Source: Alicyclobacillus kakegawensis NBRC 103104 (GTDB taxonomy: Bacteria > Bacillota > Bacilli > Alicyclobacillales > Alicyclobacillaceae). Taken from it: 64,000 nucleotides of DNA. The stretch's first letter is position 1. Every line of letters begins with the position of its first letter. The position numbers were made by a program, and so were the translations under genes. The notes beneath the pieces were generated by a model, which was not told the origin of the DNA, ran no database searches, and saw nothing but the letters and a program-made list of their open reading frames with translations. Below, piece by piece: positions 24,639 to 35,675 of the stretch. Location: contig NZ_BCRP01000003.1 of assembly GCF_001552655.1 (NCBI RefSeq), positions 62,001 to 126,000 of the forward strand. The letters run 5' to 3'.

Positions 24639-24668
24639 AATATATCACAAATTCCCGTCCGCTGGCAA
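24639..24668 (-). promoter_or_regulatory. SigA-type promoter for rpsB-tsf
   Basis: Minus strand: -35 TTGCCA (24663-24668), 18-base spacer, -10 TATATT (24639-24644) with TGA upstream, an extended -10. It overlaps the 3' end of the preceding gene of the flagellar operon, so ribosomal transcription is not dependent on flagellar expression. Confidence 0.65.
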
Positions 24669-25364
24669 TCCGGGCGCCTGGCCTGGCCGACTCGCCTGCC
24701 CCTCGTTTCTGGCTCCTGCTGGTGCGAGCAAAAGCCCCCTCACGCTGGCGATCACAGACGTCTCCACTCCCAGGCGACGAGCCGCCTCTTCGTCCGAGCA
24801 GCCCGCGTACAGCAATTCGAGGGCGCGGTAGGCCGTTGCTTCGTCGCACAATATCGCCCCCGGCGCAGCCCCGTCAGCGCATGCCTTGTCATCGGTCGCG
24901 GCCGTCGTCCCTTCTGCCTTCGTGCTGGCAGTGGCCAAGGCGTCGCCGGCAGACACCCCCGCCGTCAGGCGACCCTGTTGCAGGGTTTGCAGTTCGGCGC
25001 GCAGCTGTTCAATCTGCGCCTCCAGGTGTTCACGCAGTCGGGTCAGCTCGGCCGCCACGTCTTCATAAATACCGCTCAGAATTTTCTCGATTTCCTCCTG
25101 ATCCCAACCCGTGACGGGGGTTGTGGCAGCTGGGAGACGGTCTGGCGACGCACCCGCGCCAACCGCTCCAGCGCCGTCCGGCATCGTGGCCGAAGCGGCG
25201 TTCGGGCGCCGGAAACTGGTCCACAGCCCCGCCCCCAACAGCGGCGCTTGCAGCATGGACGAAGACGGGCCCTTCTTTAGGCGTCTTTGCAGGCGCATGT
25301 AGTACCACCCCAAGCCAACCAACAACACGAGCAAGACCACGTCCCAGAGCAAGGATTCCATCAT
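24645..25364 (-). CDS. Membrane-anchored coiled-coil protein in swrB position
   Basis: This 239-residue protein is not recognised with certainty. It has one N-terminal membrane helix (residues about 5-22), a basic stretch QRRLKKG, a low-complexity linker and a coiled coil (residues about 95-130, DVAAELTRLREHLEAQIEQL). A C-terminal block, LELLYAGCSDEEAARRLGV, resembles a small helix-turn-helix. In B. subtilis the last fla/che gene before rpsB is swrB, a single-pass protein that promotes flagellar export assembly, so a SwrB-like role is inferred from position and topology only. The ATG at 25364 is 6 bases after GGGGGGTG. It is the last gene of the flagellar operon. Confidence 0.6.
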   Translation of the reverse strand: MMESLLWDVVLLVLLVGLGWYYMRLQRRLKKGPSSSMLQAPLLGAGLWTSFRRPNAASATMPDGAGAVGAGASPDRLPAATTPVTGWDQEEIEKILSGIYEDVAAELTRLREHLEAQIEQLRAELQTLQQGRLTAGVSAGDALATASTKAEGTTAATDDKACADGAAPGAILCDEATAYRALELLYAGCSDEEAARRLGVETSVIASVRGLLLAPAGARNEGQASRPGQAPGLPADGNL

Positions 25365-25385
25365 GCCTTGCACCCCCCGCTCGTC

Positions 25386-25880
25386 TCATATCGCGTAGGT
25401 CTGATGGACCGTGCGAATCCACAACTGGTGGGTCACACTGTCGAACTCAATCGTCCTCCCGACCCGCCCCCCGACGTCCTTCGCCACCACCGGCACGCGG
25501 GCGCGTGCCAGCGCGGCCACAACCGACTCCAGATTTCGCTCCCCGATGCGCAGCGCCGGCGAGGCTAGGCGGCCTGTGAACATGTGCGCTCCCCCGGCCA
25601 GCTTGGCCTGCAGCTGCGCCGGTCGGCCGCCCGCGGCGATCACGGCGTCGATTAGCCACAATGTGCCCAGGTCCGCGTATTTTTGCGGTGGGGCGGCCAC
25701 CTTCGTATCCGGTGCCGTTGGCAGCATCACGTGTACCATGCCAGCGACGTCGGCGTGCGGATCGTAAATCACGACCCCGATGCAGGACCCCAGGCCGACC
25801 GTCAACAGGCGGCCCGGACCCTGGATGACTGCGCCGTCCCCGATGCCGATGCGTCGGACCGAGGTGTCCTCACTCGCCAC
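25386..25880 (-). CDS. cheD: Chemoreceptor glutamine deamidase CheD
   Basis: CheD deamidates glutamines in chemoreceptors and also activates the CheY-P phosphatase CheC. The 164-residue protein keeps the catalytic set of the family: Thr27 and Cys33 in LLTVGLGSCIGV and His50 in GMVHVMLP. The later CheD block KLAGGAHMF is also present. The GTG at 25880 overlaps the cheC stop by 11 bases and gives the normal family length. cheC-cheD pairing matches the B. subtilis adaptation module, although cheA and cheB are not nearby. Confidence 0.93.
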   Translation of the reverse strand: MASEDTSVRRIGIGDGAVIQGPGRLLTVGLGSCIGVVIYDPHADVAGMVHVMLPTAPDTKVAAPPQKYADLGTLWLIDAVIAAGGRPAQLQAKLAGGAHMFTGRLASPALRIGERNLESVVAALARARVPVVAKDVGGRVGRTIEFDSVTHQLWIRTVHQTYAI

Positions 25881-26493
25881 GGTCCCAACACCCCACCGCT
25901 CGCAGCAGGACCGCCATCGCGCCCGGATCGGGCAAAAGCACCAGATGAGCGTCCAGATCTTCTGTCCCGCGCTGGATCTCGGTTTGCAACAGCAACGCCT
26001 CCGTGGCCTGAGCCGCACTGTCCAGCAAGGCGATGTCCAACATCGCTCCCATCATGTCCACCGCGATGGCCGGAACAGAGGTATGCACGTTCAGGTGCGT
26101 CAAATTCGTCACCGCTGTCATGTACGACGCACAGAGGATGTTGGCCACCTCGCCGAAGGTGGACAATTCCAGCTCACTCCACTCAACCTTGTCGGCTGTG
26201 GACGCGGCAACCAGTGTATCGAGCAGGCGCCCCGCGCTCTCCAGGTCCATCAGGAAGAGAAAGTTGCCTGCAAAATCTCCGTCAATGCGAATGTAGGCGC
26301 CCGCCATCAATTTGTCCGGGCAGCCCATGGCCTCGGCGATCTCCGCCAACGGCAGAACCGCGGCCGAAGGCATCTTCATGTTGATGGTACTGGAGAGCAG
26401 TTTGGACAGCGCGGTCGCCGCGTGGCTCGCCCCGATATTGCCCATCTCGCGCAACACATCAATCTGTGCGGGTGACAGCTGGAGGGGCCTCAA
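25870..26493 (-). CDS. cheC: CheY-P phosphatase CheC
   Basis: CheC removes phosphate from CheY and forms a feedback complex with CheD. The 207-residue protein shows both phosphatase half-sites with conserved Glu and Asn: VLREMGNIGASHAATAL near residue 13 and TFGEVANILCASYMTA near residue 112. The start is a TTG at 26493 overlapping the cheW stop as TTGA. Length matches Bacillus CheC (209). The C-terminus is followed directly by cheD. Confidence 0.94.
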   Translation of the reverse strand: MRPLQLSPAQIDVLREMGNIGASHAATALSKLLSSTINMKMPSAAVLPLAEIAEAMGCPDKLMAGAYIRIDGDFAGNFLFLMDLESAGRLLDTLVAASTADKVEWSELELSTFGEVANILCASYMTAVTNLTHLNVHTSVPAIAVDMMGAMLDIALLDSAAQATEALLLQTEIQRGTEDLDAHLVLLPDPGAMAVLLRAVGCWDRGE

Positions 26494-26972
26494 CCGCGCA
26501 CACGCTCCTGAACCTGCTTCAATTGGGCGACCTGGACATCACTCAATACCCGCTCCAGATTCATGAGGACCACCGGTTTCTCTGGTCCGCCGACAACCCC
26601 CAACAAATAGCGCGCCTCAACCCCGCCAACCAAATCCGGCGGAGGCACCATTCGCTCGTCATCCAGTTGCACGATGTCAATCACGTCGTCGACCGCGAGC
26701 GCCACTTTGCACCCGTCTGTGTTCACAACCACCAGTTTCGTCTCGGACCGCTCCAATTGGTCCCCGTCCCGGCCGGATACGTAGCCGAATTGCTCGGCCA
26801 AATCAAACACAGGCAGGACCTCGTCCCCACGACTCACCACCCCTTTGATGGAAGGCAAAGTGCCTGGGACCGGCTGCACGGCCGCGCACCGTTCAATCGA
26901 GACCACCTGCCGGGCATCGGCCGCGAATTGATATTCGCCGAGTCGAAACACCACCGCTTGAAAATCGCTCAT
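26490..26972 (-). CDS. cheW: Chemotaxis coupling protein CheW
   Basis: CheW couples receptors to the kinase CheA. The 160-residue SH3-like protein has QAVVFRLGEYQFAADARQV, then LPSIKGVVSRGDEVLPVFDL with the conserved Arg, and LAVDDVIDIVQLD. ATG at 26972 follows GAGGAGG at 8 bases. In B. subtilis the order is cheB-cheA-cheW-cheC-cheD; here cheB and cheA are absent upstream and CheW comes straight after the FlhG-like remnant. Confidence 0.93.
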   Translation of the reverse strand: MSDFQAVVFRLGEYQFAADARQVVSIERCAAVQPVPGTLPSIKGVVSRGDEVLPVFDLAEQFGYVSGRDGDQLERSETKLVVVNTDGCKVALAVDDVIDIVQLDDERMVPPPDLVGGVEARYLLGVVGGPEKPVVLMNLERVLSDVQVAQLKQVQERVRG

Positions 26973-26996: not shown

Positions 26997-27530
26997 CTAA
27001 CCGTGCGCCACCCTCCGGATATAATTGAAGGCCGCTTGCTGGACAGCCGCCCAGTAGAGAGACGTGTCGACCTCCCCCACAAGGTAGCCCAACACGTCCA
27101 CCGGCCGGCCGACGTGCTGTTCCAGCAGCACCCGCTGCCCCAGCGCCGCCTGGCGAGCCGGCCGCAGGCCCCCCGGCGCTTCCACGACCATCCACAACCG
27201 CTCGGCGGCCGGTTGTCGGGACAGATGGGACAACCAGTCTGACACTTGCTCTGGCCCCATGGTGCCGTCCAGGTGCACGATGATGTCGTCTACGGGCTGC
27301 TCGGGCCAGGATTCCACAACCATCGGCTGGGGAGCGCGCCCAGCGTCCTGTCGCTCGGGCTCGCCCCCGAGCCGGCGCCGCACCGCCGCCAGGAATTGCT
27401 GGGCAAACCCGGGACTGGCGCCAGGGGCGCGCAGAAACGCCAGGGAGCGCATGGCCCCGGGCATCGCCGCTGCTTGGCCCTGCCGGGCTTTCATCAATGA
27501 GCGCAGGGGAGACGCCTGATCCCCCATCAT
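26997..27530 (-). CDS. FlhG-position protein with FlhF-activator motif but no P-loop ATPase
   Basis: A 177-residue protein replaces flhG between flhF and the che genes. It starts MMGDQASPLRSLMKA, and residues 4-10 (DQASPLR) fit the DQAxxLR activator motif of FlhG N-termini, known to stimulate FlhF GTPase. No KGGVGKT-type Walker A loop, nor any other P-loop, is present anywhere. Residues about 83-177 contain VDDIIVHLDGTMG and LGYLVGEVDTSLYWAAVQQAAF, which faintly recall the D-x-x-G and C-terminal parts of MinD-like proteins. The ATG at 27530 overlaps the flhF stop as ATGA, so the two are translationally coupled. FlhG remnant is my inference; an unrelated protein with a chance motif is the alternative. 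Confidence 0.6.
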   Translation of the reverse strand: MMGDQASPLRSLMKARQGQAAAMPGAMRSLAFLRAPGASPGFAQQFLAAVRRRLGGEPERQDAGRAPQPMVVESWPEQPVDDIIVHLDGTMGPEQVSDWLSHLSRQPAAERLWMVVEAPGGLRPARQAALGQRVLLEQHVGRPVDVLGYLVGEVDTSLYWAAVQQAAFNYIRRVAHG

Positions 27531-28456
27531 GCAGGACCCTCCCCTTGCATCCGCCGCAGCCACTCGGCCAGCGACACCGTGGCGATATCGTCCGGGACGT
27601 TTTGCCCCATGGTCGCGTAAGAAGGCGGCCGCCGACACTCCCAGACCAGGTTGATGACCGATCCGTACGTTCTTGTCTCATCCAGCTTCGTAAACAGAAA
27701 CTTGTCGAAGACGACATCGCGAAAACGCGCCACGATTTCGAACAGGTCTTCGTCTTTGGCGGTAAGCCCCAGTACCAGGTATGTCTCGTCCGGACGTGCC
27801 AGCTCAATTACTCGCCGCGTCTGCTCCGCATGGCGCGGAGCGAGCAGATTGTGGCCCGCCGTGTCAATGAACACGCGGTCGTACCCGGCGAGCGCGGCGA
27901 GCGCCTGCGGCAACTCGGCCACATCCTCCACCACCGTCATCGGGGCGTTCATGATCTGCGCGTACGTGCGCAGCTGCTCCACGGCCGCGATGCGGAACAG
28001 ATCGGTCGTCACCAGCGCCACCCTCTGGCCGGCCAGAACATGCAGCGCGGCCAGCTTGGCGATGGTCGTGGTTTTGCCGACGCCCGTAGGCCCCACAAAC
28101 ACCGCCACCCGCGAAGCGTTGCCAAGGGGACTTGCATCCAACCCACCCAGCCGCTGGCGCAGCAAAAGCTCAATCTGCGCCCAGTCGAGGCCCGGCTTGA
28201 GCAAGGCGGGGACGCGCACGCCGTGGCGCTTCAGACACGCAGCAGGCCCCTGGGCCGATCCGGTCGCTGGCTGTGACACCGGCACGTCGGCTCCGGATGC
28301 AGCCAACACCTCAATGCGCGAACTCCGGACCAGCCCCAGCCAGCGTCGTTCATGAATGCGGCGACTGCTCAAAATCACGGCGTCGTGTCCGAGGTCCCGG
28401 CGGATCTGCGGCAGTGCCTCCGGCATCTCCTTGACGACGTAGCGCTTGACGACCAT
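27527..28456 (-). CDS. flhF: Flagellar SRP-like GTPase FlhF (short form)
   Basis: FlhF is the SRP-family GTPase that sets flagellar position and number. The 309-residue protein has a short N-terminal B region (VVKRYVVKEMPEALPQIRRD, residues 1-60), a reduced N domain, and the NG GTPase. GTPase motifs are [18 protein letters not shown] (G1 near 122), TTDLFRIAAVEQLRTYA, DTAGHN (G3), TKLDE (G4) and GQNVPDDI (G5). SRP GTPases normally have DTAGR at G3, so the His is unusual. It is about 55 residues shorter than the B. subtilis protein. The ATG at 28456 shares one base with the flhA stop. Confidence 0.93.
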   Translation of the reverse strand: MVVKRYVVKEMPEALPQIRRDLGHDAVILSSRRIHERRWLGLVRSSRIEVLAASGADVPVSQPATGSAQGPAACLKRHGVRVPALLKPGLDWAQIELLLRQRLGGLDASPLGNASRVAVFVGPTGVGKTTTIAKLAALHVLAGQRVALVTTDLFRIAAVEQLRTYAQIMNAPMTVVEDVAELPQALAALAGYDRVFIDTAGHNLLAPRHAEQTRRVIELARPDETYLVLGLTAKDEDLFEIVARFRDVVFDKFLFTKLDETRTYGSVINLVWECRRPPSYATMGQNVPDDIATVSLAEWLRRMQGEGPA

Positions 28457-30492
28457 CAGAGATTCACCACCCCGCCACTTTCAATCTCCACGGCCGGATC
28501 GAGTTCACTGTAAGAGAGCACCGTCAAATCCGGCAGAAACCGCGCGAGCCAGCGCCGCACCGGCAGCCGCAGCTGCGGGTGTGTCAGCAGAATCGGTGTC
28601 TTGCCCAGCGCCGTCAGCCGATTCGACTCCTCCTGCAAACGCCGGTAGATTTGCTGGGCCAGGTTCGGATCGACCGCAATCTGCGCACTGCCCTCCTGCA
28701 TCAACAGCGACTGCTGCAGGCGTTCCTCGACGGTCGGGGAAAACGTGATCACCGTCAGCGGCTGCCCGGGCACACGGAACTGGTGACAGATTTGCCGAGA
28801 CAGGGCTTGGCGCACGCGCTCGGTGAGGTAATCGGGGTCTTTGCTCACACTGGCCGCGTCGGCCAAGGTCTCCAAAATCGACACCAAGTCTCGAATCGAT
28901 ACCTTTTCCTGCAGCAGGTTCACGAGGACCTTCTGCACCTGGCCGAGCGACAGGACGCCCGGCACCAGGTCGTCCACCAGGGCCGGCGCCGCTTCCCGCA
29001 CATGGTCCAACAGGGCCTTGGTCTCCTGCCGTCCCAACAGTTCGTGGGCGTGGCGGCGCAGTACCTCGGTCAGATGCGTCGCGATGACGGTGGGCAGGTC
29101 CACCACCGTATAGCCGGCTGCCTCGGCCCGAGCCTTCATGTCCTTATCAACCCACAGCGCGGGCATCCCGAACGCGGGGTCAGTCGTCGCGATGCCTTGA
29201 ACGTTGGGATCCTCAGGCCCGGGGCTCATGGCCAGCCAATGACCCATTTGCAACTGCGCGCCCGCCACCTGAAGACCGCGTATCTTCAACACATACTCGG
29301 AAGGCTTGAGTTGCACATTGTCACGCAGCCGGATGGTGGGGATTACGATGCCCAGTTCCAGCGCCAACTGGCGGCGGATGGCGGCCACACGCTCCAGCAG
29401 GTCTCCCCCTTGTTTGGCGTCCACCAGCGGGATCAACCCATAGCCGAATTCAAACTCCACCGGCTCCACTGTCAGCAGCGACAACACGCTTTCCGGCTTT
29501 TTGGTCTGCTCATGCTGGCTGCGGACACGCTCTTCCGCCTGCTTGGCCTGTTGACGCGACAACTGCTGCTGCCGCTGCCAGGCGAGAAAGGCGGCCAGCA
29601 GGGCAACGGGCAAAGCGCGCATGAGCCCGATGGGAGTCGCCAAGCCCAGCAGGAACACGGCGCCAGCGGCAATGTACAGGGTGCGCGGATTGGAAAACAC
29701 CTGGCCGAGCACGTCCGTACCCAGATTGGTCTCCGAAGCCGCCCGCGTCACCATCAGGCCGGTGGCGGTCGAGAGCAGCAGGGCGGGGATTTGACTGACC
29801 AGCCCGTCGCCGACAGAAAGCAACGTGTACGTTTGAGCGGCTTGCTGCCAATCCATGTGGTTCATCATCATGCCGATGATGAACCCGCCCACCACATTGA
29901 CGGCCACAATCAACAAGGAGGCGATGGCATCGCCCCGGACGAACTTGGACGCGCCGTCCATGGCGCCGTAAAAATCGGCCTCCCGTTCAATCGCCTGGCG
30001 TCGCCTGCGCGCCTCCTCTTCGCTGATGAGGCCGGCGTTCAAATCGGCATCGATGGCAATCTGTTTCCCCGGCATGGCGTCCAGCGTGAAGCGGGCGGCG
30101 ACCTCCGCCACCCGTTCGGCCCCGCGAGTGATGACAATAAACTGGATGATGGCGAGGATGAGGAAGATGATGAAGCCGACCACCAAATTGCCCCGGACCA
30201 CGAAGCTGCCGAAGGTCTGGATGACTTCGCCGGCGTCGTGCTGGGTCAGAATCAGCCGGGTGGAGGACACGTTTAGCGCTAGCCGATACAAGGTGGTGAC
30301 CAAAAGCAGGGACGGGAACACGGAAAACTCCAGCGGTTCGCGCGTGTTCATGGCCACCAGCAGCACCGTCACGGAGACAAACAGATTGATGATAAGGAGC
30401 ACGTCGAGCAGGGTCTTGTTGATAGGCAACACCATCATGGCGACGATGCCAATGACGGCGACCATGACGATGATATCGGACCGTTTTTTCAC
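28456..30492 (-). CDS. flhA: Flagellar export gate protein FlhA
   Basis: FlhA forms the nonameric ring of the type III flagellar export gate, coupling proton flow to export and docking chaperones through its cytoplasmic domain. The 678-residue protein has about eight N-terminal membrane helices (VMVAVIGIVAMMVLPI onwards). The FHIPEP signature loop contains RFTLDAMPGKQIAIDADLNA, and a long C-terminal cytoplasmic domain includes PALWVDKDMKARAEAAGYTV. The GTG at 30492 overlaps the flhB stop as GTGA. Confidence 0.97.
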   Translation of the reverse strand: MKKRSDIIVMVAVIGIVAMMVLPINKTLLDVLLIINLFVSVTVLLVAMNTREPLEFSVFPSLLLVTTLYRLALNVSSTRLILTQHDAGEVIQTFGSFVVRGNLVVGFIIFLILAIIQFIVITRGAERVAEVAARFTLDAMPGKQIAIDADLNAGLISEEEARRRRQAIEREADFYGAMDGASKFVRGDAIASLLIVAVNVVGGFIIGMMMNHMDWQQAAQTYTLLSVGDGLVSQIPALLLSTATGLMVTRAASETNLGTDVLGQVFSNPRTLYIAAGAVFLLGLATPIGLMRALPVALLAAFLAWQRQQQLSRQQAKQAEERVRSQHEQTKKPESVLSLLTVEPVEFEFGYGLIPLVDAKQGGDLLERVAAIRRQLALELGIVIPTIRLRDNVQLKPSEYVLKIRGLQVAGAQLQMGHWLAMSPGPEDPNVQGIATTDPAFGMPALWVDKDMKARAEAAGYTVVDLPTVIATHLTEVLRRHAHELLGRQETKALLDHVREAAPALVDDLVPGVLSLGQVQKVLVNLLQEKVSIRDLVSILETLADAASVSKDPDYLTERVRQALSRQICHQFRVPGQPLTVITFSPTVEERLQQSLLMQEGSAQIAVDPNLAQQIYRRLQEESNRLTALGKTPILLTHPQLRLPVRRWLARFLPDLTVLSYSELDPAVEIESGGVVNL

Positions 30493-34475: not shown

Positions 34476-35675
34476 TCATTGCAACTTTCGAACCCGGTCC
34501 GACGGGCTGATGATCTCGGTCACGCGCACGCCGAAGTTCTCATCGATGACAACCACTTCCCCGGTTGCGACGCGCTTATTGTTGACGAGGATATCCACCG
34601 GCTCCCCGGCCAGCTTGTCCAGTTCCACGACGGTACCCTGCGTCCAATTCAGGATATCACCAATTTTCTTCTTCGTGCGCCCCAATTCGACCGTCACATG
34701 GAGGGGCACGTCAAGCAACAATGCCAGATTGCGCGGCTCCCCTTCCCGGGCAGCCGTCTCCGCGCTCAGGTCGACAAATTCCGGGCGCACCACCCGAGCC
34801 GGCCGGGCATTCACTTGCGTGGGTCGCGGACCCGCGTAGGCCGCCGCCGTCTCCGCCGCGGCGCCGCGGTCTGACGCTGCCGCAGCGGCCGCTTGCGCCG
34901 CACCCTGGGCTCCCCCGCCGTCCGCCCCCACCGGTTCCGGGGAACTTGGCCCACCGTCTCCCTCCGTCGCCGCACCTTCGTCTGCATCGGAGGAACCATC
35001 CGGCGACCTTACCAAATTGACCATTTCCTTTGCGAAGGACAAGGGCAACCATTGCATAATGGTCGAATCAATCAAAGTGCCCACCCGCATGCGAAACGAC
35101 ACGTTGACAATCGGACCGGAGACCCCGAAATGCCACTCCTCGCTGGAAAGGTCGACAAACTGCACCTCAGGCGGAGAGATGTTGATGGGCCTGCCGAAAA
35201 TCTGGGACATCGCCGTCGCCGCACCGCCCATCATCTGATTCATCGCTTCCGCGACGGCAGACAGGTGCAGTTCATTGAGTTCATCCGGGACGTTCTCCCC
35301 GTTGCCGCCCAGCATGAGATCGGCAATCGTCTTCGCATCATCCAATTGCACCAACAAAACGTTGGTCCCGGTCAAGCCTTCTGTGTATTGCACCCCAACC
35401 ACGACAAACGGCTTAGGAAACTCCCCGCGCAGGTTTTCCGCCTGGTACAGACTGACCGTCGGGGTGGTGATCTCCACCCGCTGCTGCAACAACGTTGACA
35501 GCGACGTGGCGGCAGCACCGAAGCTGATGTTCCCGATTTCCCCAAGCACGTCCATGTCTTCCCCAGTGATGGAGAAGGAGTCGCTCTCGGGCGCGCCGTC
35601 GCCAGTGGAGGCGGTCGACGCCTGTTGCAACAAGGCGTCAATCTCCGCCTGCGACAGCTTCTGGTGGTCCGTCAT
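34476..35675 (-). CDS. fliY: Flagellar motor switch phosphatase FliY
   Basis: FliY forms the C-ring together with FliM and dephosphorylates CheY-P at the motor. The 399-residue protein has an N-terminal CheY-binding peptide (KLSQAEIDALLQQ), a CheC-like domain with two phosphatase half-sites (VLGEIGNISFGAAATSLS and AVAEAMNQMMGGAATAMS), and an acidic/Ala-rich linker. A C-terminal FliN domain ends it (LDVPLHVTVELGRTKKKIGD, GEPVDILVNNKRVATGEVVV). The ATG at 35675 is placed 9 bases after AGAGGTG inside fliM, giving a 38-base overlap. Confidence 0.95.
   Translation of the reverse strand: MTDHQKLSQAEIDALLQQASTASTGDGAPESDSFSITGEDMDVLGEIGNISFGAAATSLSTLLQQRVEITTPTVSLYQAENLRGEFPKPFVVVGVQYTEGLTGTNVLLVQLDDAKTIADLMLGGNGENVPDELNELHLSAVAEAMNQMMGGAATAMSQIFGRPINISPPEVQFVDLSSEEWHFGVSGPIVNVSFRMRVGTLIDSTIMQWLPLSFAKEMVNLVRSPDGSSDADEGAATEGDGGPSSPEPVGADGGGAQGAAQAAAAAASDRGAAAETAAAYAGPRPTQVNARPARVVRPEFVDLSAETAAREGEPRNLALLLDVPLHVTVELGRTKKKIGDILNWTQGTVVELDKLAGEPVDILVNNKRVATGEVVVIDENFGVRVTEIISPSDRVRKLQ

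Follow-up and report, generated by a model that had tools for sequence, protein, structure and literature searches.

The closest described relative of the protein reported here is FlhG (YlxH/FleN/MinD2; structures 4rz2 and 4rz3), whose canonical forms are about 290-310 residues long. The N-terminal DQAxxLR helix of canonical FlhG supplies a co-catalytic glutamine to the FlhF homodimer, stimulating GTP hydrolysis, and FlhG binds the membrane as an ATP-bound dimer (PMC12826062). In Bacillus subtilis, FlhG Q8A closely resembles an flhG deletion, the ATPase-dead variant D65A leaves hook distribution without discernible change, and that study's authors deduce that stimulating FlhF is the central function of FlhG; binding of FlhG to FliY does not need ATP (PMC12327844). 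Because FlhF activation, C-ring assembly, membrane cycling and GpsB binding are combined in FlhG, it is hard to separate which of its activities sets the flagellation pattern. An FlhG lacking the P-loop is not described in the open-access papers we searched.

Results

A reduced flhG directly behind flhF

The window (the whole 64,000-nt stretch of Alicyclobacillus kakegawensis DNA under analysis) contains flagellar genes in the usual order flhB-flhA-flhF-flhG-cheW-cheC-cheD, with a reduced flhG (26997..27530, minus strand) downstream of flhF. The flanking genes lie on the same strand: flhA upstream, in the same operon (28456..30492), then flhF (27527..28456), and cheW (26490..26972; PF01584) as the next gene downstream. 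FlhF is an SRP-type GTPase of 309 residues (TIGR03499, 184.5 bits against a cut-off of 174.15) with intact G1 (GPTGVGKT), DTAG and TKLD motifs, and is the presumed target of the helix described below. The 177-aa product of the reduced gene opens MMGDQASPLR (MMGDQASPLRSLMKARQ...). Its ATG overlaps the flhF stop codon as ATGA (27527..27530, minus strand) and is preceded by GGGAGG, a good ribosome-binding sequence, in line with the coupling to flhF noted in the original prediction. The Walker A loop reported missing there is indeed absent: neither G-x4-GK[S/T] nor KGGxGK[S/T] is present, and Pfam and NCBIfam scans returned zero matches even at E ≤ 10. A search of a plasmid collection with the 177-aa protein gave no match.

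In the stretch 24645-26972, only cheW, cheC and cheD lie between the reduced flhG and a 242-aa ORF, with no cheA, cheB or sigD; the 242-aa ORF has no Pfam match. In B. subtilis, cheA, cheB and sigD come after flhG.

The FlhF of the window is short compared with the 376-514 residues of most relatives and sits on a long branch in the window genus. Its DTAG motif is followed by histidine (DTAGH) in the three congeners and by arginine (DTAGR) in all relatives with canonical FlhG. A link between short FlhF and the FlhG reduction was rejected, as G024 combines a short FlhF with canonical FlhG.

Homology to FlhG

When built into a profile, the four Alicyclobacillaceae copies of the reduced protein aligned over their whole length with canonical FlhG, represented by a 15-sequence profile (hhalign, probability 98.0%, E 1.8e-13), and the most divergent copy alone, from G016, matched the canonical profile with an E of 4.2e-9. 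The match is not carried by the helix, because the body without it still scores 57.7, through the C-terminal half, compared with a maximum of 20.6 over 60 column shuffles, 16.1 for an FlhF profile and 11.1 for an FlhA profile. In the reverse direction, an HMM of the reduced proteins found the canonical flhG locus as its best match in relatives (lowest E 1.2e-7, in G023). An AlphaFold2 model built from two sequences (pLDDT 73, pTM 0.69) gave GtFlhG first when residues 25-172 were compared by VIA-align (4rz3, Z 11.0; 4rz2, Z 10.8), with flavodoxins within about 1 Z. On the strength of the profile match and the recovery of flhG loci by the HMM, the 177-aa gene is judged from its sequence to be a reduced FlhG, a remnant rather than an unrelated replacement. 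The faint MinD-type likeness that had been noted at the C-terminus thus proves real, and the earlier statement that FlhG had been replaced is right in that the helix is kept and the ATP site gone, but not in implying a helix on a new body, since the C-terminal half of the FlhG domain persists as well.

Retained and lost parts

The helix carrying DQAxxLR (D4, Q5, A6, L9 and R10) spans codons 1-17 (27480..27530, minus strand) and is delimited by conservation, dN/dS and the model, in which residues 8-17 are helical at low confidence (pLDDT about 50). A proline stands at helix position 8 in the window protein and the A. shizuokensis copy. Twenty-six columns are invariant among the four copies, including D4, Q5, A6, L9, R10 and M13, with the helix glutamine present in 4/4. 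The motif is beyond chance, because it opens all four Alicyclobacillaceae copies as well as four copies from a second genus (see below). The other retained part is the C-terminal half of the FlhG/MinD domain, codons 81-177 (27000..27290, minus strand; DDIIV..., VLGYL, QxxxNYxR), as identified by hhalign, dN/dS and structural match to GtFlhG; it contains the invariant residues G148, Y149, L150, Q165, N169, Y170 and R172.

The P-loop would have occupied codons 28-54 (27369..27449, minus strand), as placed by profile alignment and the model, where SLAFLRAPG--ASPGFAQQFLAAV aligns with canonical VIAVASGKGGVGKSNFCVNFALAL; the model has a strand at 30-34 and a helix at 42-54 around this position. Residues 28-80 alone are not detectable as FlhG by profile comparison, so the identity of the stretch rests on register and the model. 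By GtFlhG numbering, related to chain 4rz2 through an offset, 45/45 canonical FlhGs have the two P-loop lysines (K31, K36), the catalytic D60, K177 and F215. P-loop and catalytic aspartate are both gone in the four reduced proteins; the one lysine that aligns with K36, in G016, lies in a stretch with gaps where the alignment is uncertain. About 80 core residues are missing relative to canonical FlhG, and the membrane-targeting tail is absent, with the reduced protein stopping shortly past NYxR and showing no canonical RGLxGFxERL. The original prediction of an FlhF-activating helix kept while the ATP site was dropped is borne out at this level.

Retention of the C-terminal half raises the alternative that the protein mainly serves as an ATP-free adapter of the C-ring or cell wall, still binding FliY or another partner. 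K177, R207 and F215 of GtFlhG, which are needed for FliY binding and affect GpsB binding, mark a surface that lies in the retained half, and the binding of canonical FlhG to FliY is nucleotide-independent (PMC12327844). FliY, the C-ring partner of canonical FlhG, is encoded in the window with its N-terminal segment (34476..35675, minus strand; PF04509 and PF01052), and the C-terminal half is under constraint. However, the contact residues themselves have changed: K177 is replaced by S, S, F and E and F215 by H, H, E and R in the four reduced proteins, and R207 is lost in two of the four. Such an adapter would also leave the retained helix unexplained, and we regard it as unlikely to be the main role.

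Distribution and history in Alicyclobacillaceae

A scan of species genomes returned one close relative, Alicyclobacillus shizuokensis, with 79% identity, and a search of 61 related genomes found the protein in two congeners, G001 (79%) and G002 (30-31%). Reading the gene after flhF across relatives yielded a fourth copy in another genus, G016, with 23% identity. In G001, G002 and G016 the reduced gene again lies directly downstream of flhF and keeps the motif; homologues lacking it, which would have spoken against the original prediction, were not seen. Among 41 Alicyclobacillaceae genomes, only the four copies match the reduced profile strongly. Nearly all other relatives with flhF have canonical FlhG (GKGGVGKS) in the same place, called by an FlhG-level profile score where the fetched stretch was too short. 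The canonical flhG of G032 (L048) is frameshifted at the P-loop, through either sequencing error or real interruption.

FastTree phylogenies of FlhA and of FlhA plus FlhF join the window genus with G016 (support 0.80 and 0.83), and in the joint tree G017, which has canonical FlhG, adjoins this group with a support of 0.96; the grouping is not resolved in the tree of FlhF alone. A single loss in the common ancestor of the window genus and G016 is the simplest reading and has moderate support.

GpsB was rejected as a correlate, since no tested Alicyclobacillaceae genome, with or without canonical FlhG, had a match over the cut-off; G000, G001, G002, G016, G017 and G024 gave only a DivIVA-level match in this search.

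A reverse case is seen in another genus of the family, g10, where FlhG has an intact Walker A and a degenerate DQAxxLR helix (MLEPEEPMRAWE and similar; L041/L124 in G011, L044/L126 in G028, L046/L125 in G022). Proline takes the position of the catalytic glutamine in 3/45 canonical FlhGs.

A canonical FlhG query detected no second FlhG in G000, G001, G002 or G016, where the best match was MinD (30% identity), followed by Soj and Mrp-like proteins. The MinD matches lack the helix, because their alignments start at residue 23 or later. The P-loop proteins examined in the window genome were MinD (L060; TIGR01968, 388.8 bits), Mrp/ApbC and ParA-type proteins, and the assembly completeness is 99.75%. 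A complete flhG elsewhere in the genome, which would have spoken against the original prediction, was not among the proteins found.

Selection on the reduced gene

Between the window and A. shizuokensis, the whole-gene dN/dS is 0.47 (bootstrap interval 0.27-0.79), or 0.45 by NG86, compared with 0.02-0.14 for the neighbours flhA, cheC, cheW, flhF and flhB. The ratio is 0.28 for codons 1-16, 0.86 for codons 28-80 and 0.28 for codons 81-177. Constraint on the reduced flhG is thus present but weaker than on the neighbouring genes, and it falls on the helix and on the C-terminal half.

A second genus with P-loop-less DQAxxLR proteins

We scored a 399-genome sample of the class with the FlhG profile, and about 268 genomes reached an FlhG-level score (count from the score table). 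The 52 genomes whose best score was at MinD level only were searched for FlhF, which was present in 4/52. One of the four, G103 (L148), has a canonical flhG frameshifted into 141 and 174 aa, a split due to sequencing error or real interruption. In G081 and G112 (L149 and L150), flhF is followed directly by cheA, flhG being missing and flhF kept. The fourth, G257, from another Bacilli family, encodes a 144-aa P-loop-less protein that begins MNVRDQAENLRKQM between flhF and cheB (L151 2276-2744, plus strand).

A P-loop-less DQAxxLR protein follows flhF in 4/4 species of the G257 genus (G257, G426, G427 and G428; L152-L155), with a dN/dS of 0.10. The G427 body alone scores 34.8 against the C-terminal half of FlhG, and the group scores 27.5 compared with at most 17.1 in 40 shuffles. 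By this sequence comparison, which is suggestive, not strong, the same two parts seem to be kept in the second genus. Canonical FlhG is present in 16 of the 29 genomes of the G257 family, in other genera, and nine others score only at MinD level. The presence of canonical FlhG in those genera makes an independent origin likely, and the second genus apparently represents an independent case of reduction.

The raised dN/dS relative to neighbouring genes could also be read as the decay of a pseudogene, in which the function of FlhG is disappearing entirely and the helix has survived by chance. Partial decay is possible given the faster evolution of the reduced gene, complete loss of flhG behind flhF does occur in G081 and G112, and the flagellin match is weak in G016. 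Against this stand an ORF that is intact in four species at identities down to 23%, a bootstrap interval below 1 with ratios of 0.28 for both the helix and the C-terminal half, the low dN/dS in the second genus, and strong flagellin matches in the three genomes of the window genus, which together make decay to a pseudogene decidedly improbable.

Fusion of the FlhG helix to an unrelated flavodoxin-like protein is very improbable: Foldseek places unrelated alpha/beta proteins first and FlhG only at rank 10, flavodoxin Z scores come close to those of FlhG, and a phmmer search of PDB sequences hit only a chromate reductase, weakly (E 0.015), which we attribute to chance resemblance to a flavodoxin-like protein, but the body shows profile homology to FlhG without the helix, the order of its elements is the same as in FlhG, and the HMM of the reduced proteins recovers flhG loci.

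Discussion

We consider it likely, with a probability of roughly 0.74, that the reduced FlhG of A. kakegawensis, which has lost the ATP site and kept the helix and the C-terminal half, acts as an ATP-free activator of FlhF. The activity is suggested by the motif together with published work on the B. subtilis and Geobacillus proteins (PMC12826062, PMC12327844), since a helix without an ATPase is what the published reading of Q8A and D65A would allow. That the helix is kept and the ATPase lost suggests that the helix, not the ATPase, is the part these cells still need. The P-loop-less proteins of both lineages are most likely ATP-free FlhF activators.

In the proposed history, an Alicyclobacillaceae ancestor of two neighbouring genera would have had its FlhG stripped of the nucleotide site, the middle of the MinD-like domain and the membrane-targeting helix, leaving the N-terminal DQAxxLR enhancer helix together with the C-terminal half of that domain. 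The helix would insert Q5 into the GTP-bound FlhF homodimer, accelerating GTP hydrolysis and returning FlhF to monomers. The remaining half-domain would serve as a carrier or docking piece, with no cycling between a membrane dimer and a cytosolic monomer; ATP-dependent dimerization and membrane cycling are presumably absent.

Beyond activating FlhF the reduced protein may have further tasks, given that the C-terminal half of the FlhG domain persists under constraint as well. Being constrained and kept in both lineages, this half has a role, and its conservation has a reason beyond what activation by the helix alone explains. It is perhaps a folded carrier, or a docking surface other than the published FliY contact.

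The reduced protein resembles FlhG in its place after flhF, its N-terminal DQAxxLR helix and its C-terminal half, MinD-like by profile and probably by fold. It differs from FlhG in its length of 177 residues, in having no P-loop, catalytic aspartate or membrane-targeting helix, and in the loss of key FliY/GpsB contact residues. Although homologous to FlhG, it lacks the defining ATPase features and does not belong among the FlhG ATPases. The genome's own MinD (L060) is related to the parent family distantly, by fold; its ATPase site is intact and it carries no DQAxxLR helix. SRP RNA acting on Ffh-FtsY likewise contributes a co-catalytic group to a dimer of SRP GTPases, a parallel drawn for FlhG in the literature (PMC12826062), although here the donor is a protein helix and the target an FlhF homodimer, and the comparison is an analogy only.

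Taken across the class, the evidence tilts somewhat towards FlhG having been split into separate functions at least twice, with two unrelated Bacilli lineages reducing it to the helix and the C-terminal half as a constitutive, ATP-independent FlhF activator, and g10 showing the reverse. If this is true, the off-switch of FlhF and the ATPase-driven cycle would be separable modules. Species that still have flagellins and FlhF, yet of FlhG only the activator helix and one half of the domain, apparently constitute a natural experiment, and the same family also offers the opposite arrangement, an ATPase lacking the catalytic glutamine. As the reduced proteins are small and probably constitutive, the question of which FlhG activity sets the flagellation pattern would be directly testable in vitro and by a swap into B. 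subtilis.
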